Part shown: positions 2,860-58,075 of the stretch, in pieces
Layout of the letters: each line of letters opens with the position of its first letter
Numbering within the stretch: the stretch's first letter is position 1
Assembly: GCA_963924555.1 (NCBI GenBank)
Contig: OZ004585.1
Location: 6,337,488-6,401,487, forward strand
Direction: 5' to 3'
DNA length: 64,000 nt
From: Crambe crambe
Lineage: Eukaryota; Porifera; Demospongiae; Poecilosclerida; Crambeidae
Notes under the pieces: generated by a model
Seen by the model: the letters and a program-made list of their open reading frames with translations, nothing else
Database searches by the model: none
What the model was told of the DNA's origin: nothing
Position numbers and translations under genes: made by a program

Positions 2860-3049
2860 CAGGGGCGGATACAGAAAAAATCTAGGGGGTGGGCTATAAG
2901 ATTGAGAGAAGAAACACTGCTGAACTAGGGGGGCTGGCGACCCCATTGAAATCTACAATCTCTGACTCATTCATTACTAAGTACAATCATGGGTATTATT
3001 TATTAAAAATTAATAATAATATTATCAGAATCATAAGAGAATCTATACA

Positions 3050-6241: not shown

Positions 6242-6430
6242 GTTCGCGCGCAAATTGACCTTTATACTTTGCCCCACCTTAATAACAAGTGTGTATCATT
6301 TGGGGCAGGCAGGCAGATTCCGAGGCGCTAGGCTGAGTGAGGCCGGCTCTAGTAAGTTGTCTGATTCGAGGTGGGGGGGGGGGGGGGGGGGGCTACAGCC
6401 CCTGTAGCCCACCCCCTGTATCCGCCCCTG

Positions 6431-7427: not shown

Positions 7428-8269
7428 TAGCGTAAGCCGCCAATTATCGACCAGCACCTATTATCGACCGTGGCAGCACCAATTATCGACTACATAGTAT
7501 ATGGAAAGTCTACGGTAGTAAACAAACGTAAACGGAGTTTAAGAAAATGGCTGCATCGAAGAATATATGGGAAAAACTTACAAGCTCTAGAGAGAAAGAA
7601 AACAGGACTTCAACAGCACGTATTATCAACTGCAGTATGAAAATAAGTTACTAGCTCACGTTACCTATCGCCATGGCTCCGGAAGATCGCTTAAAAGGTA
7701 TGAAAGCTATCGACTTAAAGTCGAATTTGGTGCTTGTTTAGTGAGGATGTATGGATAGATTATGACTGGATTCTGTAGGAATATGAAACACAGACCAATG
7801 AAGACTGTCTCCGAAAAGTATCACCAGAATCTAACAAAAAGGAGAGCTTCTGCAGCAGTTCCATTCCACCGTTAATTGTGAAGCAGTTTATGGTAGAAAT
7901 GCTTCGTTCATTTTTTATAAAATTTGTTATGATGATGTATTTTATAGCATAAAATAGTATCTTTTTTAAGGGCCCTAACATGTAGTGGAGCAAAACTGAA
8001 AGAAAGAATGGAACAGACGATGATTGATATTATAATTTTCAACGGGTAATCAAAAATTGGTGTCGGTGGTCGATAAATGATTTCACACTTGACGTAGTAG
8101 ATTCAGCATTGCAAAATTTCTATCCAATTGTGAGAAATATAATTTATATGACGTTATAGAGGATGAAATTATCTTTCCTATGGTTGTTGTTTGAGACTTC
8201 GACGACCATCGATGAGGGAGATATGGTGCGAGGTACAAAGTATGGTCGATAATTGGCGGCTTACGCTAT
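7428..8269. mobile_element. Non-autonomous TIR element, copy 2
   Basis: The ends are TAGCGTAAGCCGCCAATTAT at 7428 and the exact complement closing at 8269. The interior matches 1366-2200 in reverse orientation with scattered substitutions and indels. No conserved open frame. Together with copy 1 it brackets hAT transposon A in inverted orientation. Confidence 0.8.
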
Positions 8270-29355: not shown

Positions 29356-32300
29356 GTCATATATAAATTGTCATCTGACTCCTCATCGGAACAATCCGTA
29401 GCATCAGTATCAGATAAAATTTCTTCTCCTGCATTTTCTCCCACAATATCTAGCATGTCTTTCTTTTTCTTTGTAATCCATGTTTGGATTTGTTTCCAAT
29501 TTAGTGAATTGAGAGAGTTACTGCTAAATTTATGATAATTATTGTAAGAGTTTTCTACCAGGAGTATGTAGCAGTATTTTTTTGGTTGCAAAACAGATGC
29601 TACTCTATGAACATCTTCTTCATCTGCTCTTGTGGAATGTGCTGTTGTGATCATAGGAACATTAGTTTCAATGTCAAACTTCTCTTGCACATGTTGTAAC
29701 GTAGTTACAGATCTAACTGCTCTTTTGATAGATGTTTCAGTTAGGTTGGATCCCATGCTATGTATTATTTCCTTAAAAAGCTTAAGGTGTTCGTTAAATA
29801 GATCGCAAGGAATGTTTGTTCCTAAACCACCATGTGTGTTGACAAATCTTTCCCACTTTAATTGTAGAGCAAGTGATGGGGGTAATGAAACTAATTGAAA
29901 TTGCAAACGTAGTGCCTGCCAAGCATACTTGATTCTGCCAGAGCAACGAAAATGAAGCATGAAAATCTTCCAACACCTGATAACTCTATTTCCATCTCCC
30001 TCTGCCCATGCATCCTTAAATTCCAAAGCTAGAGCGGCATAATGACAAAAAACTTTGGCATAGCTGTACACATCATCATGTAGTTCAGATACATTCTCGT
30101 TTAGTAGGGCATTGCTGTTGAGAGTTAGCTCATTTACAATTTCCCGTGATAGGTATGCAATTAACTTTTGCTTATCCTCCTTGCTGTTAAGTGGTGGTAG
30201 GGTTTTGGGTGTATCATTGGGGTCACTTATTCCAAGTAACTTGCAAGTGTATGCAACAAAATGCCCTTTCAAAACGGTGAAGAGAGCATCTGTGCATGCA
30301 TTCATGTCCTTCTTTGGAACTTTTGCTGCTGGGATCCGTCCCAGTAATGTGCACAAATAACCAAATGTACCGTGATCACTCGAGGAAGCCTTGAAAAGTT
30401 TCTTCCAGATTACCTACATTTGAATAGCTAGTAATTTATGCATGTGTTTCTCTTACAATTTCGAACAATTTTACCTGTAAAAAACACATTAATGTGTGCC
30501 AATCTTCAATGACTGGTACTACCAGTTCCAACCTCTCACGAGCTGTATCAGCATCCATCAAGTGTCTCTGAGCACAATACTGCCTTTCACATGTGAGCTG
30601 GTCACCTCCCGATAATACTTGCTTTTCTTCAGGATAGTCTTTTCCCAAGTAGCCTTGCATTACAGACATGATATCAAGCATATCAGAGTGGCATGCTTCA
30701 TTCTTCAGGAGAACATCGAGGAAGCATGCTTCAGATTTTCTAGCCATTTCATTGCTATATTTATGTGGTATGTGTTGAGGCAGTACAGAAGAGAGAGGCA
30801 TTAGACATTTTATATATTTACATACTATTCTTCTGACAAGAACTGTTAAGTTCATCTTGACAGCTGATATATCATCCTTTGAAGGAAGAAATGCTTCATT
30901 CTCAATCAGCATCAGACTACAACCACGTTGACCAGTGCATGATTGGAGAGATGGGTCATGTACTCTGCAACGTATCACTCCCAGGGAATACATATGCATC
31001 AGTGTTTTGTAGTGATTCAACCTGATGTCACGTGCTGTCTTGTGCTCCTGGATATTGTCACCAAAGAATTTGATGGGAACACCAGAATCAATCCATTGTT
31101 TAATCGGATTATTGTGACTGCTACTGATCGTTGAAACTACTTCCAACGTGGCTGTGTAACTAAGAGCTACTCCAACGTGGTTCAGCCGTGCATACACCTA
31201 ATAAATATAAACGTCTGGATGTTGGTACATGCTTACTAAATAAGAAGTATACTCTTACCTGTCTTGGGACTCTTGATACGAAGAGAAGGAGTGATATATA
31301 AGTTTGAATACCCACCATTTGTCTATTTCTCTCTTTCAGGAGAATACCTACTACCATACAGATACCTGGATTGTGATACGACCCAAGTTTTGTAGTGTTT
31401 CTGGAATCACTATGGCTTACAAGCATCTGAAGCAAGCTTAGCAATGTTGGAGATTTGTCTCTTAATTGAGAAATGTATGAGGACCACTGGAAATCCTCAA
31501 GCTTCCCTGGAAGCGCCTTTCGAAATAGAGTGGGATGGTTATAGCTACAAAGTGCAGAGCATTCATCATTGATGGTACTGAACAGCTGTTTAATAACTAT
31601 CTTGTTTAGCTCTGGATGGTTCAATACAGCTTTAGCAATTGTGTCAAGATGCTCACCAGCTATTGCTCTACCTAACTTTATAAGAGAAGAATTTAGAGAC
31701 GAAGTGTACGGAGCTACTCGACTTGGGGTTGATACAGAAACCTGAATGTGAACATTTTATTTATAGTTATGTTCGTATATATTTTTTATTTTAAAGCTAT
31801 TTTCTTACCTGTACACTGTGAGAATTGTTAACAGGATACTCGAATGTTGATTCTGTAGATTATTTTAATATTTGATTATAATAATAGCTGTAATGATGTA
31901 CTATTATAGCTACCTGATGTGCATTCAACAGTCTCAATTGATCTGCTAGCGACTTCTTCTGTGTAAATAATTTTATTTGCCATTTGTACAGTTTGCTGAG
32001 ATTGAAGGTCTTACCATTGTACGTAGGAAACAATTGTCTACTAGTACCAAAGCGCCTCTTGCCACGGGGTTGTGATTGTGTAGTAGCAGGTGAAACACCT
32101 GCCCCACCACTGGTATCTTTTGGCCTTTTAACTGCTACTCTTCCTGATGAAAATTAGTATTATAAATGTTGTTATACTACTTTTATATAGAGCTACCTTC
32201 CGAAGACACATTTTCATAGCTTTTTTTTTGCAGTAGCTCTTAGTCTTTGAAGTTTATAATGGATAGATTGTGCAGAGGACACACAAGTCCTACAAGCATG

Positions 32301-32644: not shown

Positions 32645-33357
32645 GTTCATAGCTAGCTAGCTAGCTACCTTGCTACCTGGGAACAATTCCTGTTTGAACA
32701 CTTCAAAATATTTTAGTCCGGTGAGATATATAGCTACTCTGTCTGTTCTTCAAAGCACAAAAAAAAATCACTTCAATGATTTTGATCGACCCCGGAAGTC
32801 GAAAACCGGGCGGATGCATTAAATCATCTACATGATATATGTACACGTTCGTTTACGTCACGTCCTGCGTGTCACGTTTTTAGGTCATGCACGTAATCCT
32901 GCGTCATTGCATGAGCATTGGCTAGAATTAATCATGACGTCTTTGACCATAGCAAATAATTATAGTATCATATTTTTTTGTCCATTAGTTTATAGCAACT
33001 ACTATGCTTATTTTTCTCAGCTAACATGAATTCAAGTGGAGTTCTAGCTACCAAAATCTGCTTCCTCTTTAAATGAACGAAACAATAGCTCAACACTGTA
33101 GATTGGTTTGACTTTTTAAACACAAGGTGACATCATGCTTCATGCCCAGTTTGGCATTCTTTGAGGTGGGTAAAAATTACAGAGAGTCAAAAATAGGACT
33201 TGGCTTTAGTATAAGGCTTACTGTTTACATTCCTGAGTTGTCGGGTGGATTGACAGTCTACAACAAGCAAGAAAATACTAGCTATTTATTGTATGTAGTG
33301 ACAAGTAATAAATCATTTATGAATAGAAGAAAGATTGCAATACAAAATTAATCAGCA
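32645..33357. other. Upstream region of the GalNAc-transferase gene
   Basis: No exon recognised. 32645-32665 is a short AGCT tandem. The remainder is AT-rich and would contain the promoter and 5' UTR of the gene at 33358; no clear TATA box can be assigned. Confidence 0.4.
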
Positions 33358-35034
33358 ATGACTGTCAGAGTGAAGTGGAAACCAGTAGGCATACTAATAG
33401 TCTGCCTTGTGTTTGCCTCCTGTGTGGCCACTTTTTATCGTAAATCTCTCTTTTCTCCTTCACTGATCACTTCATCTCCCACTAGAAAATTGATGAACGA
33501 AAACTCATGTAAAGGACTGGAAGAGCAGATTGAAAGGATGCTGCACACCAAGGAAAAGGCGAGTTTAAAAATGGTTGACAGACTAAGAGTTGAAAATTCA
33601 GAAACAAGAAGGAAATTAGAGACCCAATATGAAATGACTCATGATTTGGAAAGAAGAAATAGGCAACTTATTGAGAAGTTATCAAATTTAGAAGTTGGGA
33701 CAAGAAGACGTGAGGATGATTATCGCTTGGCTCTTCAGATTAAGCCAAATACTATTCGGACACTCAATATTCATCAGAAGTCTGAGTTTATGGTGATACC
33801 ATTCACAGCATTCACTAAAGACAGACTCTATACACTTGAATCTGGAATGATAAATAAACCCGAAGTGGCTCCAATTGGCAATAAGAAGGAAGAACTTTCT
33901 CAAGTACTGGAAAAATCGTTGGAAATATTGAATGAACCAAGAGAAGGTGAAAAAATAGCTTACATGAGACAAGATTTGGCACAGGGATATTATCGAATAG
34001 ACTGTATGATGGGGACACAGTACGAGCTTTTTTACAAGTCTAAGGATGCAATGAATGTATTTGAACATGTTCAGTTATTTCGTCCATTCGCTCCGATGCA
34101 AGAGGTCCAGGTCCAATCATATGATAAAACCAACGAGTGGATTAACTTGATTGTCCCTCTTTCTGGTAGAGTAGAAAGTTTCGAGCATTTTATGGAAATG
34201 TTTGTTGAGGAGTGTATCGAGAAGGACAAGCGAGTGTTTCTAACTGTTGTCTACTTTGGAGATGAGGGAAAAGATAGAGTCAAATAGATACTGACTGAAG
34301 TTGCCAAGGAACATGATTACGAGAGCTACAAGATTATTGAGAGAAAAGGGAAGTTTTCAAGAGGGATTGGTTTGCTAGTAGGTGCTGAAGCTTGGAAGGA
34401 TGGTAATGTCCTTTTATTCTTTTGTGATGTCGACATTGTTTTCAAACCGGGTTTCTTGGATCGATGCCGCTTGAATGCAGCTCCAGGGAACCGAGTGTAC
34501 TATCCGATAGTCTTTAGTTTATACAATCCATCTATAGTATACAGTGGTAGAGACTCGATACCATCATGGAAAGATCAGCTAATTGTAAAGAGAAACTCTG
34601 GATTCTGGCGGAATTTCGGCTTCGGCATGACTTGTATGTATCGCTCAGATTTCCTCTTCATGCGAGGATTCGACACCAAAATCCAAGGCTGGGGGATGGA
34701 AGATGTTAAACTCTATCGGAAAATTGTCCAGAGTAGCAACCTTAATGTTGTCCGAGCACCTGATCCTGGTATATTCCACATGTGGCATGAGAAAACATGT
34801 GATCCTCATCTGCCATTAGTTCAGTACAATATGTGCCTTGGAAGTAAGGCTCTTGGGGAGGCATCCCATACTCAACTGGGCATGCTTGCCTTTAGAGAAC
34901 TTAAAAAGGAAAATGAGCTTCTTCATGAGGAGAAGGAAAAGATTGCCGCTGATGACCTTCATGAAGGAGCCATGGAGAATGATGACAATGACTTGAAAGA
35001 GAGTGATCTTGATAATAATTATTTAAAAAAATAG
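33358..35034 (+). pseudogene. Chondroitin GalNAc-transferase-like gene with one in-frame stop
   Basis: A single uninterrupted exon of 559 codons apart from one TAG at 34285-34287 (codon 310), between KDRVK and [11 protein letters not shown]; reading continues in the same frame. N-terminus: short basic tail then a TM anchor (PVGILIVCLVFASCVATFY), as in Golgi type II enzymes; a coiled-coil-like stem (residues about 50-120); catalytic domain with the DxD metal site [13 protein letters not shown], then [37 protein letters not shown] and [10 protein letters not shown]. These blocks match CSGALNACT, which transfers GalNAc in chondroitin synthesis. The C-terminus has an acidic tail. Lack of introns suggests a retrocopy. 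An AATAAA lies near 35080. The stop removes the catalytic domain unless read through or polymorphic. Confidence 0.85.
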
Positions 35035-40351: not shown

Positions 40352-41108
40352 TCAATATTAGTAATTACTACATTACATATACAATTAATGTACAGACAGC
40401 TTTTTAATTCTTTATAATTATTGTGAGTGTCTGTTTTTTCTAACAAAAAACAATAATTGCAGCGAGCGAGCGAAGCGAGTGAGCTGACTCTCAGGTCATG
40501 ACTCATTGAAATTTTAAATATATATATATAGATTATTACATTGATACCGTGAAATATCACGAGTCTGTTGGCTAGTATTCACACGAGTGCCGCAGGCAGA
40601 GTGAGAATACCAGCCAATCAGACGAGTGATATTTCACGGTATCTACGTAATAATCAATTTATTATGTAACTACTGAGCATGCGTAGTGCCTTCAGGCCGT
40701 TGGATTCGTTTTATTTATTCGGTGAGTAAGCTTGACTTGTTAATTGTAATTGATTTCTACAGCGTTTCTGATTGTAGACACTAGACTTATAAGTGTCTAT
40801 TGTAAGCGCTAAGTGCTTTGTGGCTAGCATTACAGCTTCCTCTGTGTATGCAGCTAGTCTCGTGGGCCAAACCCCTTACCAACCGCGCTGCCAGGCTGAA
40901 CTGCCACTTACTACAGCAGCTAGCTAAGGAGTTCAGGCACATCTAAAAGGTATAGCTGTACTTGCTTCACTTGCTGTCAAATGTTTTTACTTGCTTTAGC
41001 TACTTGTTGTCAAAATGTTGCACATTAATTATTTCCTAGGAGTTCAGCAGAATTTTTAGCTATTTTTTAAACTCTTGAAAAGGAAGTATAGCTATAAAAC
41101 TACATAAT
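40352..41108. repeat. Repeat fragments and a 124-bp palindrome
   Basis: 40458-40532 is a 5' fragment of a type A Helentron-like unit. 40533-40656 is a palindrome opening GATTATTACATTGATACCGT, with GAAATATCAC facing GTGATATTTC. 40857-40900 begins TAGTCTCGTGGGCCAAACCC, a solo end of the hairpin-TIR family. No gene seen. Confidence 0.6.
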
Positions 41109-43742
41109 TGCAGCGAGCGAGCGAAGCGAGTGAGCTGACTCTCAGGTCATGACTCATTGAAATTTTAAATATATATATATATATATATATCTAGGTCTAC
41201 ACTCCAAAATGCCCCAGGCGTACGTACGTACGTGCGTACGTACGTGTCGTGCAATAGTAGCGCCCCTGCGCGTGCATTTATGCGCATGCTCCAGTTGCAA
41301 TTGCTTGATTGATTTCTACATCGCTTTGTATATAGCATGGTGGATAGTAGGGCTAGGCTTATCTAAGTGGATTGTAGGCACTAGACATATCCAAGTGCTT
41401 TGTGGTAAGTACTTAGCTTTCTATGCATGCAGCCGCCTGCCACTTAGCTACATAACACAACAGCAAAGCAAGCTCAACATTTCTACAGCCTTTTGGGCAG
41501 CAGGCACAAGAGGCTTATCTAAGCGGCTTGTAGGCACTAGGCTTATCTAAGTGCTTTGAGGTAAGCATGTATGCAGCTGCCTGCCACCACTTACATCACT
41601 GTCAAATGCTGCACATTGCTATAGATACTCAACAGCAAATGAAAATCGTTGAAGAATACTTGCTTGCTCGCTCGCTGTCAACTGAATGTTGAACATTGCC
41701 CTAGTTGGCGAGCGAAGCGAGCCACTCTCTGGTCATGTCAACGGGAGCTCGAGATATATATATACGTACGTCATAGCTAGCGGGCATAGCTTATAATACG
41801 CATGCGCACGTTCGTTTAACCTTTGACCCCACAAATGAAACGTGCTCATAGCACTTAGAACAAATAGCTAGCTAGAGCTTATTGCTTTCTACAGCATTTT
41901 GTCGTAGAGGCGCTAAGTGGATTGTAGGCGCATGGCTTTCTAAGTGCTTGTGGTAAGCATTATACAGCCTCCTGTCAGTGTGTATGCAGCTGCCACACTG
42001 CCACAACCACTGCAATATCTTAGGCTTAGTCCAATAAGTCAAAGTACAAATGACTTTCACCAACTGTTTCGCTCGCCGATTGAATATGTTACACGAACAT
42101 ACCCTAGTTGCAGCGAGCGAGCGAAGCGAGTGAGCTGACTCTCAGGTCATGACTCATTGAAATTTTAAATATATATATATATATCTAGGTCTACACTCCA
42201 AAATGCCCCAGGCGTACGTACGTACGTACGTGTCGTGCAATAGTAGCGCCCTTGCGCGTGCATTTATGCGCATGCTCCAGTTGCAATTGCTTGATTGATT
42301 TCTACATCGCTTTGTATATAGCATGGTGGATAGTATGGCTAGGCTTATCTAAGTGGATTGTAGGCACTAGACATATCCAAGTGCTTTGTGGTAAGTACTT
42401 AGCTTTCTATGCATGCAGCTGCCTGCCACTTAGCTACATAACACAACAGCAAAGCAAGCTCAACATTTCTACAGCCTTTTGGGCAGCAGGCACAAGAGGC
42501 TTATCTAAGCGGCTTGTAGGCACTAGGCTTATCTAAGTGCTTTGAGGTAAGCATGTATGCAGCTGCCTGCCACCACTTACATGATTCTTAGCAATATCAA
42601 GCACTGAAGCCTATCAGCTACTTTAATTGCTCACTGTCAAATGCTGCACATTGCTATAGATACTCAACAGCAAATGAAAATCGTTGAAGAATACTTGCTT
42701 GCTCGCTCGCTGTCAACTGAATGTTGAACATTGCCCTAGTAGCTATTTGCAGCGAGCGAGCGAAGCGAGTGAGCTGACTCTCAGGTCATGACTCATTGAA
42801 ATTTTAAATATATATATCTATGTCTACACTCCAAAATGCCCCAGGCGTACGTACGTACGTACGTACGTGTCGTGCAATAGTAGCGCCCCTGCGCGTGCAT
42901 TTATGCGCATGCTCCAGTTGTAATTGCTTGATTGATTTCTACATCGCTTTGTTTATAGCATGGTGGATAGTAGGGCTAGGCTTATCTAAGTGGATTGTAG
43001 GCACTAGACATATCTAAGTGCTTTGTGGTAAGTACTTAGCTTTCTATGCATGCAACTGCCTGCCACTTAGCTACATAACACAACAGCAAAGCACAAATGA
43101 ACTATCAGCTCAACATTTCTACAGCCTTTTGGGCAGCAGGCACAAGAGGCTTATCTAAGCGGCTTGTAGGCACTAGGCTTATCTAAGTGCTTTGAGGTAA
43201 GCATGTATGCAGCTGCCTGCCACCACTTAGCAATATCAAGCACTGAAGCCTATCAGCTACTTTAATTGCTCACTATCAAATGCTGCACATTGCTACAGAT
43301 ACTCAACAGCAATCGTTGAAGAATGTACTTGCTTGCTCGTTCGCTGTCAACTGAATGTTGAACATTGCCCTAGTTGGCGAGCGAAGCGAGCCACTCTCTG
43401 GTCATGTCAACGGGAGCTCGAGATATATATATACGTACGTCAATAGCTAGCGGGCATAATTAGTAATACGCATGCGCACGTTCGTTTGACCTTCGACCCC
43501 ACAAATGAAACGTGCCCATAGCACTTAGAACAAATAGCTAGAGCTTATTGCTTTTTACAGCATTTTGTCATAGAGGCGCTAAGTGGATTGTAGGCGCTTG
43601 GCTTTCTAAGTGCTTGTGGTAAGCATTATACAGCCTCATGTGTATTCAGCTGCCACAACCACTGCAGCCCAATAAGACGTACAAATTACTTTCACCAACT
43701 GCTTCGCTCGCCGATTGAATATGTTACACGAACATACCCTAG
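41109..43742 (+). repeat. Head-to-tail array of Helentron-like elements (A1 B1 A2 A3 B2)
   Basis: Units: A1 41109-41704, B1 41705-42107, A2 42108-42739, A3 42748-43373, B2 43374-43742. Each unit starts T(T)G-rich with GCGAGCGAGCGAAGCGAG or GGCGAGCGAAGCGAG, has the complement (GCTTGCTCGCTCGC or TTCGCTCGCC) near its 3' side, then a hairpin (TCAAC-TGAAT-GTTGA in A; TATGTT-ACACG-AACATA in B) and ends CCCTAG before T. Internal ACGT and AT microsatellites vary in length between units. This asymmetrical-TIR plan with insertion at T is that of Helentron-associated (HINE) non-autonomous elements. Open frames in them are by-products. Confidence 0.8.
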
Positions 43743-43875
43743 TTGCAGCGAGCGTATGGCAAGCCATCAGTATCAAAAATAAATTCAGATGTACTTCCCA
43801 CACCTACGTCTTAAACGTACGTCCGAAACTGGGACCTACGTCCGAAATTGAGACCTACGTCCGAAATTGTAGAAA

Positions 43876-45496
43876 ATGGCGGAAGTGGGGGTTATTAGTG
43901 GTTGGAGTGATTTTTTCCATGAAATAGTTACTTTAGCTGATAGTTCTGAAAGGCAGTTAGGAATTGCTAACCTAAATTATTCGGACTATGTTCTAGAAAG
44001 GCTGGAAATGTGTATTGGCACTTGCTCTAACATGCTTGAAATCATCAATACTTCTACTGAGTTGCAAGACTATAGCAGCTCTTTGATTGAGCTTATTCAG
44101 TGTCTACAGAGATCATATCGTAGATGGAATGAATATAAGGCTTTCCTTGAAGGTCCATCTCAGCATTATCTTCCTGTCCTATCAACACAGCCAGTTGGAG
44201 GACGAGGAAGGCCACGTTTTGAAGTCAACAGATCTCAGTTAGAGTATTTGGCATCTTTGTCCTTCAAATGGACTGAAATAGCATCGATTCTTGGTATAAG
44301 CAGGATGACACTTTACAGGTGAGCATGCACATTAAATAGAACCACAAGGCCACTTCATGCACTGTGTCCTATTAAGCTTACACTGGCTTTATTATTATTT
44401 TTAAGGCGTCGGCTACAATATGGTCTTGTGCATGATCCTGATGAAGTTATGAGCAATGAAGATTTGAAGGATACTATTAAACAGTTTCGAGAACTTCAAC
44501 CCTACAGTGGTGTGTCTATGGTGTGGGGTAACCTCAGAGCAAGAGGAGTGAAAGTTACCAGGGAGAGGGTCCGATGCATGCTTCGAACTATTGATCCTCT
44601 AGGAAGAGTTTTGCGTTGCTTTCCTGCCTCTGTAAGAAGGCACCCCTACTCTGTCCCAGGACCGAATTCACTGTGGCATATAGGTAAGTGTGTTATGTCA
44701 TCATGTAGTTGTGTTTATGTAATTTATTATAGATTCACACCACAAGTTAGTTCGATGGCGAATGATAACTCACGGTGCAATAGATGGTTACAGTAGACTT
44801 GTGTTGTATCTGAAGTGCACTCCCAATAATCAGTCCACAACTGTCTATGAGCTTTTCTTAAAAGCTGTTCAAGATTTCAACCTACCGTCAAGGGTTCGTT
44901 CAGATCAGGGACTAGAAAATGTGGCAGTAGCACGACACATGATTGAAAAAAGAGGAAGTGATCGGCGAAGCATGCTCACAGGATCTAGTACACATAATCA
45001 AAGGATTGAGCGGTTGTGGCGGGACATGCATGGCAGTGTGACCTTGCTATTTTATAGACTATTTTACTTCTTAGAACAACAGGATTTACTTGACCCCTTG
45101 AATAACCTGGATCTATGGGCATTACATTATGTGTACCTGCCAAGGATAAACCGCAGCTTAACTGAATTCATTCATAGCTGGAACCACCATCCAATTCGAT
45201 CTGCTGGCCACAAATCTCCCCAACAACTGTTTACTGCTGGTTCTTTATTACTACAGTCTTCAAATATGGAAGCATTGGACTTTATTGAACCTGTAGACGA
45301 TAACTACGGTATTGATCCAGACATTACTTCAGTACCTGATGAAGTAGTTTTTGTTCCAGAGAACCCTGTGAGGTTTTCAGACGCTGATATGCATGCATTA
45401 AGATTAGCCATAGATCCCTTGGGTGTTAGTGATAATCATGGTATTGATATCTATGAACAAACTCGACAAATAATTTCCACTTTTGTTCACCTCTGA
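43876..45496 (+). CDS. IS3EU-like DDE integrase/transposase
   Basis: Exons 43876-44318, 44406-44683 and 44733-45496, phases 2 and 1, giving 494 aa without a break. Residues about 110-147 form a helix-turn-helix (LEYLASLSFKWTEIASILGI) before MTLYRRRLQYG. The integrase core follows: first Asp at the exon 2/3 junction (LWHID-SHHKLVRW) with GAIDGYSRLVLYL, second Asp in VRSDQGLENV, and the Glu in HNQRIERLWRD; then LPRINRSLTEFIHSWNHHPI, typical of this rve-type family found in fish, cnidarians and sponges. It would cut and join the transposon ends in the nucleus. The ATG lies 2 bp inside the end of the TIR repeat words, so the promoter must be in the TIR. No defects seen. Confidence 0.9.
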
Positions 45497-45814
45497 ATAT
45501 TATTTTTGTTATTTGATAGTAATCATGCATTAGGATCAACCTGTATTAAAGTGTTGTCTAGGTAACCGCTGACATCAATTGGTCTATATATATTACGGCT
45601 GAGATGATGTCGGAAGTGCTAACATCATGGAGTCTCTGCATACCTACTTTCTCTCTCAGCGAAGCAGTCAGTACTGTTCACCCTATGTGGTTTCAATAGA
45701 ATTGCAATGTAGCGCAGCAGTATCACAAGTTTAATCTATAAAAATGATTGGTATTAATTTGATCATGAAATAATTGTGGTTGACGAGTATGGAGTTCTCA
45801 CAAAACAAGTCTGT
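45497..45814. other. Spacer between the two convergent transposon genes
   Basis: About 320 bp of non-coding DNA holding both 3' ends. No clear polyadenylation signal or conserved structure identified. Confidence 0.4.
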
Positions 45815-48800
45815 TTATAATGCATCCATCCGGAATGAAAATTCTTCATTGACTTTGTCAAAAATCACCTTAAAGTCTTCATAAAATTCATCAAAATTAA
45901 TATATGTAGATGACAGTTCAAGAGTGGAGTCACACGTGTGTGCTATAGGCCTCCTTGATAATCCACTCAGTATGTTGAAAGTAACCAAAATATCATTGGA
46001 ACTGCACACAGTACTCCCAGTAACAAAACGCAGAAATGAACGGAGTTCATTTGTGTTCATGTTTCCTATCATGGTTGTCAAATAACCATACACTCTTTCC
46101 TCATTTGGAGATTGAGCCTGAGGCAATACAAGCATACCTCTGACCTTTTCAGCAGTTACAGTAAGCTTTTGGTAAATCATTGACATGCTCTGTACACTTT
46201 GCTGCATCCAAAAACCTTGGTGAGTAAGTGGAATACCAGAATACACAGCAAATACAGCAGCAGCTGGTCTAGTAATAAATTCATACTGAGCAATGTGCTC
46301 AATGCAGGATTTCAAGTTATATGGTGAAGGAAGTTGCCGGCATCCAAATCTGGACAAGACACTCAGGAGAGTTTCTTGAATTGTACTGGAAAATTTGCCA
46401 TCGATATCATATGTAAGAGCCTCCTTGAATACAGCTCTTTCATGAGCACTAATGTAATCAAGAAAAGTCTCCAGCAAAATTTGACAAGAAACAGTTTTTG
46501 GCCCCAAAAGCATGTTAATCAGCGTGGGCAAAGCTATCCTAACAGGTAAATGACCAGCTACAAGATAACCATGAGATATGATGCGGCCAAGGATAGGATA
46601 AATACTCATCTTCATATGTGGGTTAACCATAGGTATCAAGAGTGTAGCACCTTCAAAAAACTCAGAATAAGCCTGCTCCCAAAATGCGGAAAACATATCT
46701 CTCTGCACACCACCATAGTCAAGTCCTTCTTCACTAGAAAATTTGATATGTATGGGGCATTCACCAACAATGTCACCACACCGGTACATATCAATAACAT
46801 CTTCATACACATTATTCCGATCAACAATACGAGTACCACCCTTCACAGCATTTACTGACTTCATATACATCAACCTTTTTCTTTCCCCTATTAAAAAAAA
46901 AAAAAAAAAAAGAAGTGTAGTCATAGGCCACGACATTCTTTGTCTTTGAAGATAAAAGATCTTTTCTTTTTTTTCAGGGATACTTATGTATCTTGTATAC
47001 ACCATTCAGGAGCATGCATATCCCTCCCCTGTATATCACTGCCACCTAATTAATGTGCACCCTTATATATAAGTGGTGAGCACTATTTGGAAAACATACC
47101 TTCATTACTGTAACGGCATGCATTATCATCATCACTACTGATAGCATCACTGTGGTGACCCTCTGAGTCCTGTTCAATATCTGCAAGCAGTTGCAAGGCA
47201 TCGTCAAAATCACCTTCACCACCAATCACATGAAGGAGATGATTCTTAAATATGCTTGCAGGTTTGCACATTTCATCTTCTGACAGAGGTAATGGGGTTT
47301 GTGTGTGAGTGGTCAACAGAAATGGTGGAGAAATATCCTTTGCCACAAACTGGTACAAGTCCTGTCAAGAAAAATAATCAGATGAATGGTTGGTTATACA
47401 AGTAGAAGCAATAATGTAGATACCTTTATTGTAGCAGTTTCATCAAAAGTGAAATTGATAGCTGTACCAGACGGCAGCTTAAAAGAAACGCAAAATCCAT
47501 GTCCTGTATAACCATCAAACTTCTTCTTTAGTTTGGTTTGTATTTTCTGTATTGAATGTACAAGGGAGTATCAAGCATGATTCAACATACACCATGCACT
47601 TGAGGGTCATCATGTTAATTATACTAAATAGTAGTGCAGAGTTTATTATTGCACACACCTCCAATACTTCCTGCTCCTTTTTTTCAGCCTCCTATGCAGA
47701 GTAGAGCACCATTACAACAGACCAGAGGAAATCTCCCCCATATTTTAATAGTTACACTACACCACCTACCTTAGCTCTATCTACTCTTAGAGATTCCAAA
47801 TAGGCCAGATCCTGCTCCTCACGTAGCTCTCTGTAATTCTTGGTTAAAAGCTCCACAATCCTGTAAATATATGATGATTTCATAATAATTGAAGTGATAA
47901 CGATGCTAAAAATATACCTTGATTTCTATAACCTCTTCAACATCTGAATCAAAGACACAATCTTCTATTGAATATCCCTCTGGCAGTAAAGGTGGGTTCT
48001 ACAATCAATAATAATGCCAAAAAGTTAAAAAAACAAAAACAAAAAATAAAAACAACAACAACCAAAAAAGAATGAAAAAACAACTCACTCTTAGTTTAGC
48101 AAGCACCTCATTAGCTTTAGAAATCAAATCTTCAGTGTTCTCTGGGCCTGGGGGATCTAGAAAAGAATGATCCACTACAGAAGTAGAAGTCGTAACAGTA
48201 GGTGCCACAGTAACAGGAGTGTTGGTAGCGTTGGTAGCACAAGGTAGAACAGTAGCTTGCACCACAGCTGAAGCAGACCCCATGGTAGTACGAGGCACCA
48301 CAATGGCATGCACCACGGAAGGAGGTACCACGCTAGTAGAAGGAACTACAGTAGTACAAGGCCCCACAGTAGGAGGTACCGGACATTCAGCAAGCAGATA
48401 CAGGCACCCATGGCCTGCTAAGTCAATCACTTCAGAACCATCAAGTTCCTGCTTTTCAGCTACAGCAAGAGAATTGTTTTTTTTGCTCTTCAAAAAAATA
48501 AACTCGGATCCCAGTGATGAAAAGGCTTCATTGATTACAGCTTTTGTTTCCTTTATATTCATGTATCTGAAAAAAGGGATATCTTTAATTTTTCCATTAT
48601 TAGAAAGCTTTTCTCTTGATGCCCCTCGCGGAATCATGCCTGAATTCTCTTCAAGTACAACTACTCTGATTGATTTCGGCCTTCCTTTAAATGCTTTTTT
48701 TTTTCCGCTGATGTTCAGCATTAACTGATGCACCTAAAGGATCAAACTTTTGCTTCTTGGTGGCAGGAAAAAGACTTGCTAGAGCTCGTGCATTTGCTTC

Positions 48801-49173
48801 AGTTGGTTTGGATAGAGTTTGGCAAAGTGATTTTATTTTGCTGGCACTCTAAAATGAATAAGAAATAATCACAAGTATCCATAGCAGATGCTAGCTGCAT
48901 TACCTCTTGACTATTACACTCAACAACTTTAAACCTGTCTCCTTCAGCTACTTCTCCATCAGAGTCTGTGTAACACTCCCATTTTGGAGACCACTTCTGA
49001 AGAATAAAAGTGCCTTTTGTTCTGGGCATATCACGATCAAAAGGAATCAAATAGGGACCAGCGTCACAGGATCTTCCAGGAAGTTTGCCCTTAATACTAA
49101 CTTCGAGAGAGTCTTTTGTAACCTTGATGACTTCTTTAGACGCCCCTATTTCGAGCAAAACCTCAACCATCAT
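45815..49173 (-). CDS. HECT-type ubiquitin-ligase-like protein carried by the transposon
   Basis: Probable exons on minus: 49173-48904, 48848-48089, 47998-47918, 47860-47770, 47691-47659, about 47550-47424, about 47360-47102 and 46887-45815. Exon 1 opens MMVEVLLEIGASKEV; exon 2 has FKGRPKSIRVVVLEE and a Thr/Ser/Val-rich linker; exon 4 has REEQDLAYLESLRVDRAK, and exons 6-7 a UBX-like region. The last exon is a HECT-like domain: EEGLDYGGVQRDMFSAFWE near its start and RPIAHTCDSTLELSSTYINF near its end, with the Cys of HTC in the position of the HECT catalytic cysteine. HECT ligases pass ubiquitin from E2 to substrate. Odd points: a run of ten A near 48700 puts exon 2 one base out of frame, and the exon 3/4 junction phase does not agree as drawn. 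Similar proteins are often annotated as G2E3-like. Confidence 0.75.
46898..46918. repeat. A homopolymer before the HECT exon acceptor
   Basis: Nineteen or so A on plus (T on minus) form the polypyrimidine tract directly before the AATAG acceptor of the HECT exon. Length is likely unstable. Confidence 0.7.
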
Positions 49174-49180
49174 AGAACTG

Positions 49181-49849
49181 TAGTCTCGTGAACCAGACCT
49201 TTCACCTTTGACCCCCAAGGGGGAGGGAAAGGGTCTGGTCAACACTCCACATAAGTTTTGTGCCCGTGGAATGAAAATTGATGGGTGGGTCCAATTCGCG
49301 CGTTAACAATAATGTTGATAAAATAGTGATGTAATTAATGCGAGCGAATGTCACAATGGAAGTCTTCTGCTATGTCTGCTCTGTAAACTTAGCCCAACAA
49401 GAACCGAAGGAAGCTCAGCAGCTCTTCTTCCAGTGATATACTCATCATTTTGAGAGAGCTGATACGTGATGTGATCATGGAAGACCAGGAAGTAAGCCAT
49501 AGCACAAGGACTTACCATAACCAGTAGGCAATGCAACGAATACATCAGACCCACCAACGAAAGCCTGGATTGCTTGTAGCTGTTCTTTCTTCAGGGCAAC
49601 GATGCCTGCTTCGCTAGCAGCTTGCTGAATAGCTTTATCCTTCTTCATTTTTCCTTCGTATCAATTCCTACTGCGCATTAATTGAAGTCGGCAAATTTTT
49701 TCTCAAAGATTGATGACGTATTCTGACGTTACGCGATCTGATTGGAGCGCCAAGATCTTGGCGCTAACACAAAACTTATGTGGAGTGTTGACCAGACCCT
49801 TTCCCTCCCCCTTGGGGGTCAAAGGTGAAAGGTCTGGTTCACGAGACTA
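49181..49849 (-). mobile_element. Hairpin-TIR MITE carrying a RecQ-like N-terminus
   Basis: TIRs start TAGTCTCGTGAACCAGACC and contain a stem CCAGACC...GGGTCTGG with a CCCCCAAGGGGG apex. An exact 10-bp duplication CATAGAACTG flanks it (49171-49180, 49850-49859). On the minus strand an ATG near 49650 opens [20 protein letters not shown] and then [20 protein letters not shown] and [17 protein letters not shown], the start and Walker A motif of a RecQ-type helicase, after which the frame runs into other sequence. This is an internal deletion product of a helicase-bearing transposon like 27688-32644. Confidence 0.9.
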
Positions 49850-50669
49850 CATAGAACTGTACTTCCACGGCCACGTGTGTGAACTGGTCTCGTGCACGTC
49901 GACATGAGTCACATGATATAACATTTCGCACGTGCGTCCTGTCACGAGACTAGTGACAATTTCGGACGTAGGTCTCAATTTCGGACGTAGGTCCCAGTTT
50001 CGGACGTACGTTTAAGACGTAGGTGTGGGAAGTACATCTGAATTTATTTTTGATACTGATGGCTTGCCATACGAGCGAGCGAAGCGAGTGAGCTGACTCT
50101 CAGGTCATGACTCATTGAAATTTTAAATATATATATATATATATCTAGGTCTACACTCCAAAATGCCCCAGGCGTACGTACGTACGTACGTACGTGTCGT
50201 GCAATAGTAGCGCCCCTGCGCGTGCATTTATGCGCATGCTCCAGTTGCAATTGCTAGATTGATTTCTACATCGCTTTGTATTATAGCATGGTGGATAGTA
50301 GGGCTAGGCTTATCTAAGTGGATTGTAGGCACTAGACATATCCAAGTGCTTTGTGGTAAGTACTTAGCTTTCTATGCATGCTGCCTGCCACTTAGCTACA
50401 TAACACAACAGCAAAGCACAAATGAACTATCAGCTCAACATTTCTACAGCCTTTTGGGCAGCAGGCACAAGACTGACAAGAGGCTTATCTAAGCGGCTTG
50501 TAGGCACTAGGCTTATCTAAGTGCTTTGAGGTAAGCATGTATGCAGCTGCCTGCCACCACTTACATGACTCTTAACAATATCAAGCACTGAAGCCTATCA
50601 GCTACTTTAATTGCTCACTATCAAATGCTCGCTCGCTCGCTGTCAACTGAATGTTGAACATTGCCCTAG

Positions 50670-52634
50670 TTGCAGCGAGCGAGCGAAGCGAGTGAGCTGA
50701 CTCTCAGGTCATGACTCATTGAAATTTTAAATATATATATATATATATCTAGGTCTACACTCCAAAATGCCCCAGGCATACGTACGTACGTACGTACGTA
50801 CGTGTCGTGCAATAGTAGCGCCCCTGCGCGTGCATTTATGCGCATGCTCCAGTTGCAATTGCTTGATTGATTTCTACATCGCTTTGTATATAGCATGGTG
50901 GATAGTAGGGCTAGGCTTATCTAAGTGGATTGTAGGCACTAGACATATCCAAGTGCTTTGTGGTAAGTACTTAGCTTTCTATGCATGCAGCTGCCTGCCA
51001 CTTAGCTACATAACACAACAGCAAAGCACAAATGAACTATCAGCTCAACATTTCTACAGCCTTTTGGGCAGCAGACACAAGAGGCTTATTTTGTAGGCAC
51101 TAGGCTTATCTAAGTGCTTTGAGGTAAGCATGTATGCAGCTGCCTGCCACCACTTACATGACTCTTAACAATATCAAGCACTGAAGCCTATCAGCTACTT
51201 TAATTGCTCACTATCAAATGCTGCACATTGCTACAAATACTCAACAGCAAATGAAAATCGTTGAAGAATACTTGCTTGCTCGCTCGCTGTCAACTGAATG
51301 TTGAACATTGCCCTAGTTGGCGAGCGAGCGAAGCGAGCGAAGCCCCACACTAATTGGTCAAAATGGAAAATTGCGATATTTATATGTTACACGTACGTCA
51401 CTCAAAATGCGCATGCGCTTACGCGTGCGCACGAAATAGCTACTAAGCAACGTCATAATAAGCAATCGTTTTCGTTAAGCTTGAAGTTGAAGCACTATTG
51501 TAGCGAGTATTATGGAACCCAGAGAACCAGAAAATAAGCGAAGGAGGGCCCCAGAACACCCTCTAGAAACTGACCAGCAAAGAAGAGCGAGACCGAGCTA
51601 GAAGGAGAACACAGTCAAAGGAACAGAGAAAAAAAAGACTAGCAAAGAAATGCAACAGATAGAGCCAGGAGGAGGGAATGTACAGAGTCAGCAGAAGATA
51701 ATGCTGCAAGAGCAGAGCAAATGAGAGCCAGAAGGAGAGCAGAGTCAGCAGAACACAGAGCTGCCAGATTAGAGCATATGAGGGCTCATTATTTGAGAGA
51801 CTAGCTACTGAGTCTGTGGGTTCAGAGAAGACACTCTAATACTAACTGGGAATGCACCAAGTCAGTTAACAACCTGAATAGCTAGATATCGAAAGTCACT
51901 GTTGGGGCTATATAATCATAAGTGAGGGAGGAGCACATTGAAATGACCACTGGCTGCTTGCTCGCCCAACTAATGCTATACGAGCATCTCTAGTTACAGC
52001 GAGCGAGCGAAGCGAGTGAGCTGACTCTCAGGTCATGACTCATTGAAATTTTAAATATATATATATATCTAGGTCTACACTCCAAAATGCCCCAGGCGTA
52101 CGTACGTACGTACGTGTCGTGCAATAGTAGCGCCCCTGCGCGTGCATTTATGCGCATGCTCCAGTTGCAATTGCTTGATTGATTTCTACATCGCTTTGTA
52201 TATAGCATGGTGGATAGTAGGGCTAGGCTTATCTAAGTGGATTGTAGGCACTAGACATATCCAAGTGCTTTGTGGTAAGTACTTAGCTTTCTATGCATGC
52301 AGCTGCCTGCCACTTAGCTACATAACACAACAGCAAAGCACAAATGAACTATCAGCTCAACATTTCTACAGCCTTTTGGGCAGCAGACAAGAGGCTTATC
52401 TAAGGGGCTTGCAGGCACTAGGCTTATCTAAGTGCTTTGAGGTAAGCATGTATGCAGCTGCCTGCCACCACTTACATGACTCTTAACAATATCAAGCACT
52501 GAAGCCTATCAGCTACTTTAATTGCTCACTATCAAATGCTGCACATTGCTACAGATACTCAACAGCAAATGAAAATCGTTGAAGAATACTTGCTTGCTCG
52601 CTCGCTGTCAACTGAATGTTGAACATTGCCCTAG
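50670..52634 (+). repeat. Helentron-like array continued (A5, C1, A6)
   Basis: A5 50670-51316, C1 51317-51993, A6 51994-52634. C1 starts TGGCGAGCGAGCGAAGCGAG, ends with hairpin ATGCT-ATACG-AGCAT, then CTCTAG before T, and has TTGCTCGCCC upstream of the hairpin. It differs inside from A and B: from about 51511 it encodes a decayed Arg/Ala/Glu-rich repeat (MEPREPENKRRRAPEHPL and several RARRRAESAE units), as at the N-terminus of some Helitron-type proteins, so C1 may be a deletion derivative of a coding element. Confidence 0.75.
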
Positions 52635-52712
52635 TAAATATATATATCTAGGTCTACACTCCAAAATGCCCCAGGCGTACGTACGTACGTACGTACGTGT
52701 CGTGCAATAGTA

Positions 52713-55700
52713 ACATTACGGCTGCTGCTTCGAGGAGCTGAAAGATTTTTGAGTTGAGACTGTTGAGTTTATATTGAGACTGTTGAGAAGCTACTGCGGT
52801 GGTTACAGTCTAGCTTTTGCACCACTGTGCAAGAGCCTGAGGCTTGAAAACCCCCCACCTTAGTGGCTCCTAATCTCCTGCTCGGCTGGTGGCTTTCGGG
52901 AGTGTGCTTTATTTGGATTCTGCTCCTGGTCTAGGTGACTGCACTCACTGTTTGGATGACCTGCTGCAGATGCAACCGCACAGGCCGATGCCTGAACTGC
53001 CACTGTGTCAAGCAGGGGATACCCTGCTCCACCTGCCTCCCCCTGCGTTTAGGCAATTGTGCCAATATTGCTCCACCAAGCCAAAACCAGTCCAACCCTG
53101 CTGCTGATCCTGCTACCAGTGCTATCAAGACTCAGAATGCCGCCTGTCCCACTGTCAATGCTCACCCACAGCCCACACCTACTACTCCAAGCACAATAGG
53201 CTCCTCCCAGGCCTGCTCCACCTCCCTTCCAATTTTCCAAACAATTGCTGCACCTGTGTTTACATGGAGTGAGCTAGAAGCCAGCAGTTTCAGTTCACAG
53301 CTGGATAAGTGCTACAAGACCGTGGTGTACTGGACACGGAACGTGTTCACTGTACCCTCAGGGAACCAAGGTAAAGGTTTTATCAATGAGCTGTCACGGC
53401 TATTTCGTGCTTATGGAGAGGGTTCGGCTCTAGAGAGTGTAGCCTTGAAAGCAGTCATGACAATGTGTGCACTGCTTCTTCAGAAACCACATCGCACATC
53501 CAAGACAAGAGATCACATAGCGTGCCTAGAGCGAAGATTGACTCTGTGGAAAGCTGGAAACCTGGAAGAATTATTACTGGAGGGCAAAACAATACAGAAG
53601 CGAATTCCCAACAGGAGACGGAAAGATGATACGAACTCTATCAAAAGAAACTTTACACAAGAAATGCTAAAAGGCAACACTAAAGCAGCTCTCCGTCTAA
53701 TCAACGAGGAGAAACGAGGCTCCACCCTCCAACTATCTGACAATGTTACATGTACCGATGGAGGCTCAATGTCGGTGCTAGATGCCCTCAAATTAAAGCA
53801 TCCCATTGGAGCTGACCCGCAAGATGATGCCTTAGTGGATGAGGCTGCATCTCCACCAGATACACACCCAGTAGTATTTGATTCCATTCAAGGAAAGACC
53901 ATCCGTGCAGCAGCTTTGCGGACTGAAGGTGCCGCTGGTCCATCTGGAATTGATGCTCATGATGGAGGAGATTATGCACCTCATTTGGCTCAGCCTCCAC
54001 AGATCTCTGCAACTCCCTGGCACTACTCACTCGGCGTATCTGCACTGTGTTGGTTGACCCAGAGGGCCTAGCCCCTCTGATGGCCTGCCGATTAATTGCC
54101 CTCAACAAGAACCCAGGTGTGCGTCCTATTGGGGTTTGTGAGACTATTCGGAGAATTATAGCAAAGGCTGTCCTTTCAGTCACTGGTGCTGACATTCAAG
54201 ATGCTGCAGGCACAGTCCAACTTTGTGCAGGTCAAAAGAGCGGCACTGAGGCAGCAGTACACGCCATGAACCTCGCTTTCAAAGAGGAGAACAGCGAGGC
54301 TGTTCTATTGGTAGATGCAAGTAATGCTTTCAACTCCCTGAATCGTCAAATTGCCCTAAGAAACATCAGAACTTTATGCCCTTCCATCTCCACCATGTTG
54401 ATCAACTCTTACCGGAAAGACCCAGAACTATTCGTTGGAGGCACAACCATACACTCCAAAGAAGGGACTACGCAAGGGGATCCGCTAGCTATGCCAATGT
54501 ATGCCATAGCCCTACTACCATTGATCAAGAAAGTAAACCCTCACTGTTCTGTCACTCAAGCCTGGTATGCAGACGATGCCTCAGCCACTGGTCACCTATC
54601 AGATCTCCGCTCATGGTGGGATGCCCTCGTCTTTCACGGCCCTGCCTATGGATATCATGTCAATGCTTCCAAAACATACCTGATAACAAAGGAATCCTCT
54701 TTCGCAAATGCCACTACCATCTTTGGTGATACACAGATCAAGATTACTTCAGATGGCCACTCTTACCTAGGATCCCCCCTGGGCACCTCCTCCTTCCGAG
54801 AAAGCTATGTGCAGGAGAAAGTGGCCCGATGGTGTCATGAATTGAAGTTGTTGTGTTCAATCGCTGAGACCAGCCCTCAAGCTGCATATGCAGCCTTCAC
54901 ACATGGACTCGTCAACAAATGGTCATACTTATCAAGAACTACCGAGAACATTGGTCCTCTCCTACAACCCCTTGAGGACATTATCCGGACAGAATTAATT
55001 CCAACGTTATCGAGTCGCCCTGCCCCAAATGATAAGGAGAGGGACTTACTAGCTCTCCCATGCCGACTGGGTGGGTTAGGACTCACCAATCCCTCCACCA
55101 CAGCCAGCGAGGAATTCTCAGCTTCAAAGAACGTAACCAAGCCACTAGTTGACCTCATCCTAGCACAGGAGAGCTCCTATCCCTACGAAGCCCATGCAGA
55201 GCAGCTTTCTGCCGTCTCTGGTGTGAAGAAAAGAAAGCGCACCATTCAGAACACTCAGGCCAGTTCAGTTAGAGCTAATCTACCTATCGAGCTGCAAAGA
55301 GCTATGGATCTTTCTCAAGAAAAAGGAGCCTCAAATTGGCTTACCGTACTGCCCGTGGAAGAGTTTAGATTCTCACTCCACAAGAGTGCTTTCAGGGACG
55401 CTTTGGCCCTGAGGTATGGTTGGCAGCTGACCAATACTCCATCCTCTTGCTCATGTGGCCACAACTTCTCAGTGGAACATGCCTTCTCCTGCCCCACTGG
55501 AGGTTATCCATCCATCAGACATAATGAGATTCGGGACTTCACTGCACATCTCCTTTCAGAAGTTTGCCACAATGTGGCAATAGAGCCACATCTCCAGCCA
55601 CTACAAGGTGAAGCCCTCCACAATCAATCATCAAATCGTCAGAATGGAGCCCGCTTAGACATTGCTGCTGATGGCTTCTGGGGAAGTAGGCACGAGAGAG

Positions 55701-56213
55701 CTTTCTTCGATGTAAGGGTTTTCAACCCATATGCTCCCTCAAACTGAAACTCCCAACTAACAACTTGCTACAGATCTCATGAAAATGCAAAGAAAAGGTC
55801 CTATGATCAACGAATCAGAGAAGTTGAACATGGCTCTTTCACTCCCCTCGTTCTGTCTTGCACTGGTGGCATGGGACGTGCTGCTATAAACACATACAAG
55901 AGACTGGCCACTCTTATCTCAACAAAAAGAGATGATATCTACAGCAACACCATGGGCTGGATCCGATGTCGTCTCTCATTCTCTCTGCTACGTGCAGCTA
56001 TCATGAGCATCAGGGGCGCCCGCTCCACCATTGGCCATGCAACCAGGGAACCGGAGGCCCCAACAGATCTTATCACCCGGGTCTGCCACATCCCAGCATT
56101 GGACTAATCACACGTCACCCTAACCTTTTGTCTCACTTTTCTTATTATTTACTTCTCCTCTCTACATCCTTATATTTCAGTTGCTGAGCAACGTTAAATA
56201 ATAATAAAAAAAA

Positions 56214-56254
<41 letters not shown>
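52713..56254 (+). mobile_element. Non-LTR-type retroposon with poly(A) tail
   Basis: A 3.5-kb insertion ending in AATAATAAA and about 40 A, with an exact 9-bp duplication GCAATAGTA (52704-52712, 56255-56263). It has no LTRs. Content: zinc-binding N-terminal region, reverse transcriptase and a C-terminal restriction-like endonuclease-like part. This matches target-primed retroposition of a LINE. The clade is not certain; the C-terminal part points to RLE-bearing rather than APE-bearing LINEs. Confidence 0.85.
52935..56107 (+). pseudogene. LINE polyprotein: Cys-rich, RT, RLE-like
   Basis: First frame 52935-54071: a Cys cluster CCRCNRTGRCLNCHCVKQG then CSTCLPLR, followed by a Pro/Ser linker and a basic region. 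Second frame to 55747: RT with NKNPGVRPIGV, LLVDASNAFNSLNR, GTTQGDPLAMPMYA and the active-site box YADD near 54570; then the Cys/His motif CSCGHNFSVEHAFSC (about 55445) and ARLDIAADGFWG with AFFDVRVFNP, a PD-(D/E)XK-like nuclease. A third piece 55748-56107 contains REVEHGSFTPLVLSCTGGMG in the same frame as the RT. Two defects: a one-base loss near 53965, where DAHD should pass into WRRLCTSFG, and a TGA at 55745-55747. So it is a young but inactive copy. Confidence 0.85.
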
Positions 56255-56255
<1 letters not shown>

Positions 56256-56770
56256 CAATAGTAGCGCCCCTGCGCGTGCATTTATGCGCATGCTCCAGTT
56301 ACAATTGCTTGATTGATTTCTACATCGCTTTGTATATAGCATGGTGGATAGTAGGGCTAGGCTTATCTAAGTGGATTGTAGGCACTAGACATATCCAAGT
56401 GCTTTGTGGTAAGTACTTAGCTTTCTATGCATGCAGCTGCCTGCCACTTAGCTACATAACACAACAGCAAAGCACAAATGAACTATCAGCTCAACATTTC
56501 TACAGCCTTTTGGGCAGCAGGCACAAGACTGACAAGAGGCTTATCTAAGCGGCTTGTAGGCACTAGGCTTATCTAAGTGCTTTGAGGTAAGCATGTATGC
56601 AGCTGCCTGCCACCACTCTTAACAATATCAAGCACTGAAGCCTATCAGCTACTTTAATTGCTCACTGTCAAATGCTGCACATTGCTACAGATACTCAACA
56701 GCAAATGAAAATCGTTGAAGAATACTTGCTTGCTCGCTCGCTGTCAACTGAATGTTGAACATTGCCCTAG

Positions 56771-58075
56771 TATTATAATGAATACTACTACTAATAGGAC
56801 AGCAAATACTCCCAGTGTCAATGATGTGGTCAAAAACCCTATGCTGTAATTTTTCCAGCTATGATAAACATTGGCAATTATGATTAATTTTTGTAGCTGT
56901 AGATCTTGGAAATAGTTCCGAAGTTCTTATGAATACACATCTTCCATTATAACTGCTCAAATCGATGGTGCAATTCTGAGTCAAGTTGCTTGAAGAAATT
57001 ATACAAACTTTATCCAACTCTGGAGACGTGGCGTTGTAAAAGGTATAAGATACATTGGAGCTCCATTGAGGAGTTACCATCCCTGGACTGATACTCTAAT
57101 TCGTAATAGTAATTGGTGGTAAAACTCTTCTTTCCCGAACTTCCTTCCTATTATGGTAGCTAATATTATATTGTGTTCCATTGGATGTGTATCTTCTATA
57201 ATAGTTGCACTGTTCCATTGAGCTGGTATCATTGTAGCAATTCGTATTTTCGTATGTCATTTAATAAGTAGACTTTGATGCACAAGTAATTGCATTGACT
57301 GCTCATCGTATCGATGATGACAGAAATATTTGCATCGCTTTGAAGCAAGAGATTATCGAATATTGGTATGAAGCTAGCACCCAGAGAAAATGTTTGTATC
57401 AGTGGAAAATGATTCATGATTGATATTGTTAGCTGTACATGGACCTTCAAATACTTGATAAGGAAGTCTGTTCAAATCTTGATGAAAGCTGATCGATTTC
57501 AAAATAGCTTGTCATCTATATTAATGTAAGAGGTGTAATTTCTCCTTGCAGGTTGTAGCTATGTGGTAGTGGGAATATCTTTCAGTTTCGGACAGTAGTA
57601 GTTTATAAACAGTCCTAAAAATGTAAACGACATTGTTCCTATGGGGAAATGTATAACAGAGTATGAGACTCATATTATTTGTACATGGTTGCACATGCAG
57701 GCTAAAATTAGCCAAATGTATATGGGCATAGAATCAAATGTACCTGTTCAATCCTTTGGTCATGAATTGATAATTGATATAAAGCCAAATTCGTAACATA
57801 ATTATAGTATGCTTTATAAAGTCTTAGAAATAATGTGTGTACTAGCTAGTCATGAATATTATTTATAAAACGTGGGCACGGGAGCTGATCATGCAGGATT
57901 ACACACAGATAGTAGTTAATTCTGGGCAGGCCATGAAGATTTGTTTGTGACTGCATTAATTTTGATTATTATCATTGTACACAGCAATATACTGCATGTT
58001 AAATGAGATTATTATTCTGTTACTGACTAACTTACTAGTGGCAGTGATATCATTTATTATTGAGGTACATACGTA
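56771..58075 (-). pseudogene. Decayed copy of the two-TM glycoprotein gene
   Basis: Matches 61033-62365 in the same orientation, including flanking non-coding sequence (GGCAGTGATATCATTTATTA at 58040 and 62341). Recognisable pieces are SLGASFIPIFDNL and DANISVIIDTMSSQCN near 57300-57380, and WSSNVSYTFYNATSPELDKV with SYNGRCVFI near 56930-57070. Several frameshifts and small insertions break the frame, and the C-terminal TM segment is degraded. A dead duplicate from a segmental duplication about 4.3 kb apart. Confidence 0.8.

Follow-up and report, generated by a model that had tools for sequence, protein, structure and literature searches.

Transposons of the IS3EU (GingerRoot) superfamily are characterized, in the available text of PMC10045372, by TA..TA termini, a 6-bp target-site duplication, a DDE transposase of the IS3/IS481 kind, and the lack of the HHCC motif. 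The fungal IS3EU elements have TAYGG..CCRTA ends and a 6-bp duplication and, according to the accessible part of PMC12730594, carry extra genes for a TET/JBP dioxygenase and an alpha-kinase, the alpha-kinase gene lying opposite to the transposase gene. Enzymes of the ubiquitin and SUMO systems are known from another group of transposons, Ginger1, whose transposases contain an OTU or Ulp1 domain; it was suggested by the authors that transposition involves the ubiquitin pathway (PMC2836005, available text). Here, we describe an element from a 64-kb stretch of DNA, which was analyzed as a whole and is termed the window below. We consider it fairly probable that this element is a comparatively young insertion of the IS3EU superfamily with two convergent genes, one for a DDE transposase and the other of the HECT type.

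Borders and Insertion Site of the Element

The IS3EU-type element spans positions 43755-50071 (~6.3 kb) and constitutes a precise DNA-transposon insertion. It is bounded by two terminal inverted repeats (TIRs) of 116 bp each, the left one on the plus strand (43755-43870), which begins with TATGGCAAGCC, and the right one on the minus strand (49956-50071), with the end GGCTTGCCATA. Counted from the element tips, TATGG..CCATA, the two repeats are identical over all 116 bp. The earlier note had described nearly identical repeats of 118 bp; their identity holds, but the 118-nt pair takes in two flanking bases per side. The left TIR contains three words TACGTCCGAAA with a spacing of 19 bp (43818-43866, plus strand). 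As previously claimed, there are three exact words in each TIR, spaced by 19 bp in the right one as well, and these six are the only occurrences in the whole window, where 0.01 would be expected. The words are possible transposase-binding sites.

The target-site duplication CGAGCG flanks the element on both sides (43749-43754 and 50072-50077, both unstranded), as established by comparison of the flanks and of uninterrupted sites. The element inserted into a local array whose repeat units are related and several hundred bases long; the array occupies positions 40454-43400 and 50078-56788 of the window. A 400-nt query, in which the element flanks were joined with a single CGAGCG, aligned across the join with six other units of the array (41890-42313, 50656-50885, 41105-41327, 51973-52197, 42743-42950, and 40454-40530), and the junction sequence is GCGAGCGAGCGAAGCG in all six. 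Among them, only 41890-42313 is long on both sides (~200 nt each), the others covering 15 to 34 nt to the left of the join. Since the target is a short repeat itself (GAGC), the length of the duplication depends on these empty sites, all six of which agree with the 6 bp reported before. Moreover, because the six units read through an uninterrupted site, we infer that the 6.3 kb, including the HECT-type gene, were inserted as one unit. Animals are known to have many HECT genes (PMC2837046, available text), and an ordinary host gene could in principle have come to lie next to a transposon that landed beside it; however, the TIR pair and the duplication enclose the gene and the six array units contain nothing of the 6.3 kb, so that this explanation is extremely improbable and could be revived only by a misassembly.

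Transposase Gene and Superfamily Assignment

The transposase gene on the plus strand (43876-45496) is composed of three exons with GT-AG borders, 43876-44318, 44406-44683, and 44733-45496, the last including the stop codon. The reading frame is open across all three exons and encodes 494 aa, or 496 aa when an alternative donor is used. The DDE residues are D241, D298, and E333, the second and third of which are separated by 34 residues; the intact 494-aa integrase described earlier is thus confirmed. The protein matches the Pfam family rva_4 (3.6e-81), and the NCBIfam models for the prokaryotic families IS481 (2.1e-16) and IS3 (2.8e-13) are matched under their equivalog cut-offs. Helix-turn-helix matches at approximately residues 130-153 are below the Pfam cut-off. 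The transposase was also matched by 80 of 72,556 plasmid records, none of which covers over 80% of the query; among the ten of these 80 matches listed, nine are annotated as IS3 family, with ~24% identity, and one is without annotation. No HHCC motif was found in the transposase by pattern search, and no Pfam match to OTU or Ulp1 was obtained for it.

The element agrees with the published traits of IS3EU in each respect examined. Its TATGG..CCATA ends correspond to the TA..TA termini and to their fungal form, the duplication is of 6 bp, the rva_4, IS481, and IS3 matches place the enzyme with the IS3/IS481-related DDE transposases, and no HHCC motif precedes the core. The traits of Ginger1, i.e., an HHCC/H2C2 finger, a 4-bp duplication, and OTU or Ulp1 in the transposase, are not found. 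Judged from its sequence, the anatomy of the element and its filing as IS3EU, which had been suggested before, are very probably correct.

Structure and Coding Potential of the HECT-Type Gene

The HECT-type gene is located on the minus strand (45815-49173) and consists of eight exons with GT-AG borders: 49173-48904, 48848-48089, 47998-47918, 47860-47770, 47691-47659, 47546-47424, 47361-47100, and 46887-45815. Its frame is not continuous. The eight-exon gene proposed in the earlier note is therefore borne out in its minus-strand exons and their borders, but is qualified by two frame breaks and by a nested insertion at the start codon.

The last exon (exon 8, 45815-46887, minus strand) encodes a HECT domain with an AHTC motif, as had been claimed, and is recognized by Pfam, PDB matches, and the motif itself. 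The Pfam cut-off is passed narrowly (24.8 bits vs. 23.9; 26.2 bits with the last exon alone), and the Pfam HECT stretch covers only residues 177-349 of the exon-8 peptide, in which the catalytic-type cysteine of AHTC is Cys318. Residues 3-77 of the same peptide match PDB structures of RSP5 (E 1.7e-4 to 2.4e-4), which corresponds to the N-lobe, and its C-terminal part matches a structure of AREL1 (E ~1e-4). Both the domain with the C-lobe cysteine and the N-lobe of HECT E3 ligases are recognizable in the peptide, and the product is a predicted ligase. With this AHTC-containing HECT domain at the end of the minus-strand gene, the mobile unit holds a HECT gene.

The preceding parts of the protein are less well defined. 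A UBX-like stretch was noted earlier in exons 6 and 7 (47100-47546, minus strand); the match exists, but it is weak and below the Pfam cut-off (E 0.01; 16.4 bits vs. 21), and none of the three PDB matches of this part is a UBX protein. For the two N-terminal pieces, no Pfam match was obtained, and a scan by eye showed too few Cys and His residues for a PHD or RING domain. Structures predicted from the single sequence are of low confidence, with a mean pLDDT of 44.9 for the N-terminal piece and of 34.4 for the HECT exon.

A period-3 signal (shuffle P <= 0.05) was detected in six of the eight pieces tested, namely in exons 1, 3, 7, and 8 and in both parts of exon 2; exons 4 and 6 gave no significant signal, exon 5 being left out. 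For comparison, exons 2 and 3 of the transposase gene were positive, and its exon 1, the nested element, and intron 7 were negative. The last exon of the HECT-type gene is open along its full length, and none of 5000 Markov-simulated sequences of the HECT region contained an open stretch of 357 codons or more.

Damage to the HECT-Type Gene and the Nested Element

The first change of frame in the HECT-type gene coincides with a run of ten A (48695-48704, minus strand), and the second falls into the region of the exon 3/exon 4 junction (47860-47918, minus strand). When introns were chosen freely, with GT or GC as the donor and AG as the acceptor, an open path to exon 4 was obtained; it was rejected as implausible, since most of exon 3 is lost on this path and introns are entered. 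In addition, a nested 669-bp element with 82-bp TIRs, a 10-bp duplication CATAGAACTG, and a helicase fragment occupies positions 49181-49849 (no strand assigned). This later insertion, which is separate from the IS3EU element, sits at the HECT start codon. When its two sides are joined, an in-frame ATG is found farther upstream, at 49924, and the insertion may thus interrupt the coding sequence.

Both frame breaks might be errors of assembly or sequencing, in which case the gene would be whole save for the nested insertion. This is a serious but doubtful possibility: one break lies within a ten-base homopolymer and the transposase gene of the same element is open, but the second break is outside any homopolymer, and the nested element at the start codon, with its potential interruption of coding from the ATG at 49924, would remain. 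We favor the reading that this copy probably has a defective HECT gene.

The 82-bp TIRs of the nested element are identical to each other and begin with TAGTCTCGTG. Its helicase fragment is of the DEAD/RecQ type (Pfam DEAD, 4e-6) and is 44% identical to the stretch 27891-28055 of the window. AcademH transposons are described, in the available text of PMC10045372, as having a 9-10-bp duplication and a helicase; the 10-bp duplication and the helicase fragment of the nested element would fit this description.

The presence of a nested element in this copy brings up another origin of the HECT gene, i.e., its delivery by a second transposon nested in the IS3EU element. However, the element at 49181-49849 excludes the HECT exons, and of the nine inverted pairs found, none beyond the TIRs and the TIR-internal repeats encloses the whole gene, an argument that applies to inverted-repeat elements only. 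Such delivery is therefore very unlikely.

Gene Layout and Proposed Mechanism

The two genes of the element are convergent and tightly packed. The transposase ATG is located 5 bp inward of the left TIR, and the HECT ATG 782 bp inward of the right TIR, a distance that shrinks to 103 bp once the nested insertion is removed. The stops of the two genes are 318 bp apart, and the HECT gene fills the space from the transposase stop to the right TIR. On the basis of this one copy, the compact convergent order therefore favors a built-in second gene over a random fragment.

Alternatively, the HECT gene could be a host gene captured once, in this copy or its sub-family, as transduplicated cargo useless to the transposon. 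Its introns and two frame breaks are as in decaying cargo, and a single copy is seen, as blastn detected no further copy of either the element or its TIR within the window. The layout just described speaks against such cargo, as do the fully open last exon and the coding signal in most of the tested pieces, and we regard the capture as rather unlikely. In our tentative view, to which we give slightly less than even weight, the HECT gene would be a selected accessory gene of the element.

Relatives of the element were also sought by pattern scans in collections of viral and genome contigs, where animal elements are hardly expected. The viral scans matched 5, 0, 0, 44, 23, and 29 stretches, the third of them using a DNA pattern, and the genome scans 18 and 14 stretches; no relative was confirmed by tblastn among them.

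In the proposed mechanism, the transposase would bind the repeated TACGTCCGAAA words in the TIRs, excise the unit, and reinsert it at cuts with a 6-bp offset. The anatomy of the element lends good support to cut-and-paste movement in which the DDE transposase acts at the TIRs and cuts with this offset. The TIRs would drive both genes. A scan with bacterial models, which are unsuited to a eukaryote, gave 10 promoter-like sites vs. 16.2 in shuffled sequences and one terminator-like site vs. 4.1. The HECT protein, a predicted ligase, would serve as an element-encoded accessory E3 and act on host factors of repair or silencing or on the transposase. Because the HECT gene is probably defective here, this particular copy would either use a HECT protein supplied from elsewhere or move without one. 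More generally, there might be an animal IS3EU lineage that has a HECT ligase as its stable second gene, by which host repair or silencing proteins or the transposase would be ubiquitylated, and that acts as a source of repeated HECT genes in the genomes of animals; we consider this possible, though somewhat short of an even chance.

Other Features in the Window

Several further genes and repeats were observed in the window. RecQ-type helicase ORFs on the plus strand (Helicase_C, RecQ_Zn_bind) oppose DUF6589 ORFs on the minus strand at 27891-31756, which is perhaps another two-gene DNA transposon. A chondroitin N-acetylgalactosaminyltransferase-like gene is located at 33352-35031 (Pfam CHGN 2e-64 on 34288-35031), where an in-frame TAG at 34285-34287 separates two open segments that share a frame; a pseudogene, an intron, and a sequence error are alternative explanations of this stop. 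Long imperfect inverted repeats (87-92%) at 1365-8269 flank a DUF4371 ORF on the minus strand (4306-5991), which is perhaps an older hAT-like element. Finally, the region 52935-56104 contains a reverse-transcriptase ORF (RVT_1 3.4e-11 on 53963-55744) with adjoining ORFs in shifted frames.

Comparison with Known Systems

The earlier note saw in the element a possible explanation for the numerous G2E3-like genes of animal genomes; none of the tests made here ties the gene to G2E3, which has PHD/RING-like domains at its N-terminus. The gene described here is similar to G2E3 in its C-terminal HECT domain, but differs in that no PHD/RING-like domain is found in its N-terminal pieces and in that the structures matched are those of other HECT ligases. 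Because these pieces have no Pfam match and few Cys and His residues, the PHD/RING part of G2E3 is absent from view. The origin of G2E3 was placed after the chordate/echinoderm split in a 2010 survey (PMC2837046, available text). According to the accessible parts of the respective reports, G2E3 matches occur among unclassified repeat candidates in Cottus, and g2e3 has gained copies on the B chromosomes of Astyanax. Both observations would fit a mobile HECT gene, which these accessible parts do not connect with IS3EU; if the proposed lineage exists, it might explain some multicopy HECT genes.

The word "hect" does not occur in the main text of PMC10045372 (0 times) or in the available texts of PMC12730594, PMC5638112, PMC12062965, and PMC2836005. 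A search of titles and abstract beginnings, with partial coverage of journals and with Repbase outside its range, found no HECT-bearing DNA transposon. Transposon genes acting on ubiquitin or SUMO and extra genes of IS3EU elements are known already, and the putative HECT-type extra gene appears to be without precedent in the literature found.

The element shares with IS3EU/GingerRoot the ends, the 6-bp duplication, the kind of transposase, and the missing HHCC motif; the HECT gene is its difference. The fungal IS3EU elements, as far as they are described in the accessible part of PMC12730594, are alike in the TAYGG..CCRTA ends, in the 6-bp duplication, and in an extra gene opposite to the transposase gene, but their extra genes encode a dioxygenase and a kinase in fungal hosts, whereas the extra gene reported here is that of a predicted HECT-type ubiquitin ligase. 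With Ginger1, the element has in common the combination of an integrase-like transposase and an enzyme of the ubiquitin/SUMO system. In Ginger1, however, the proteases are fused to a transposase with an H2C2 zinc finger (PMC2836005), and the duplication is of 4 bp (PMC10045372), according to the available texts of both. The transposon genes of the ubiquitin and SUMO systems in the literature found, so far as its texts are available, encode proteases that remove the tag, and a ligase carried on a transposon would add an enzyme that conjugates it. If true, this would offer a concrete test of the Ginger proposal on the ubiquitin pathway in transposition.
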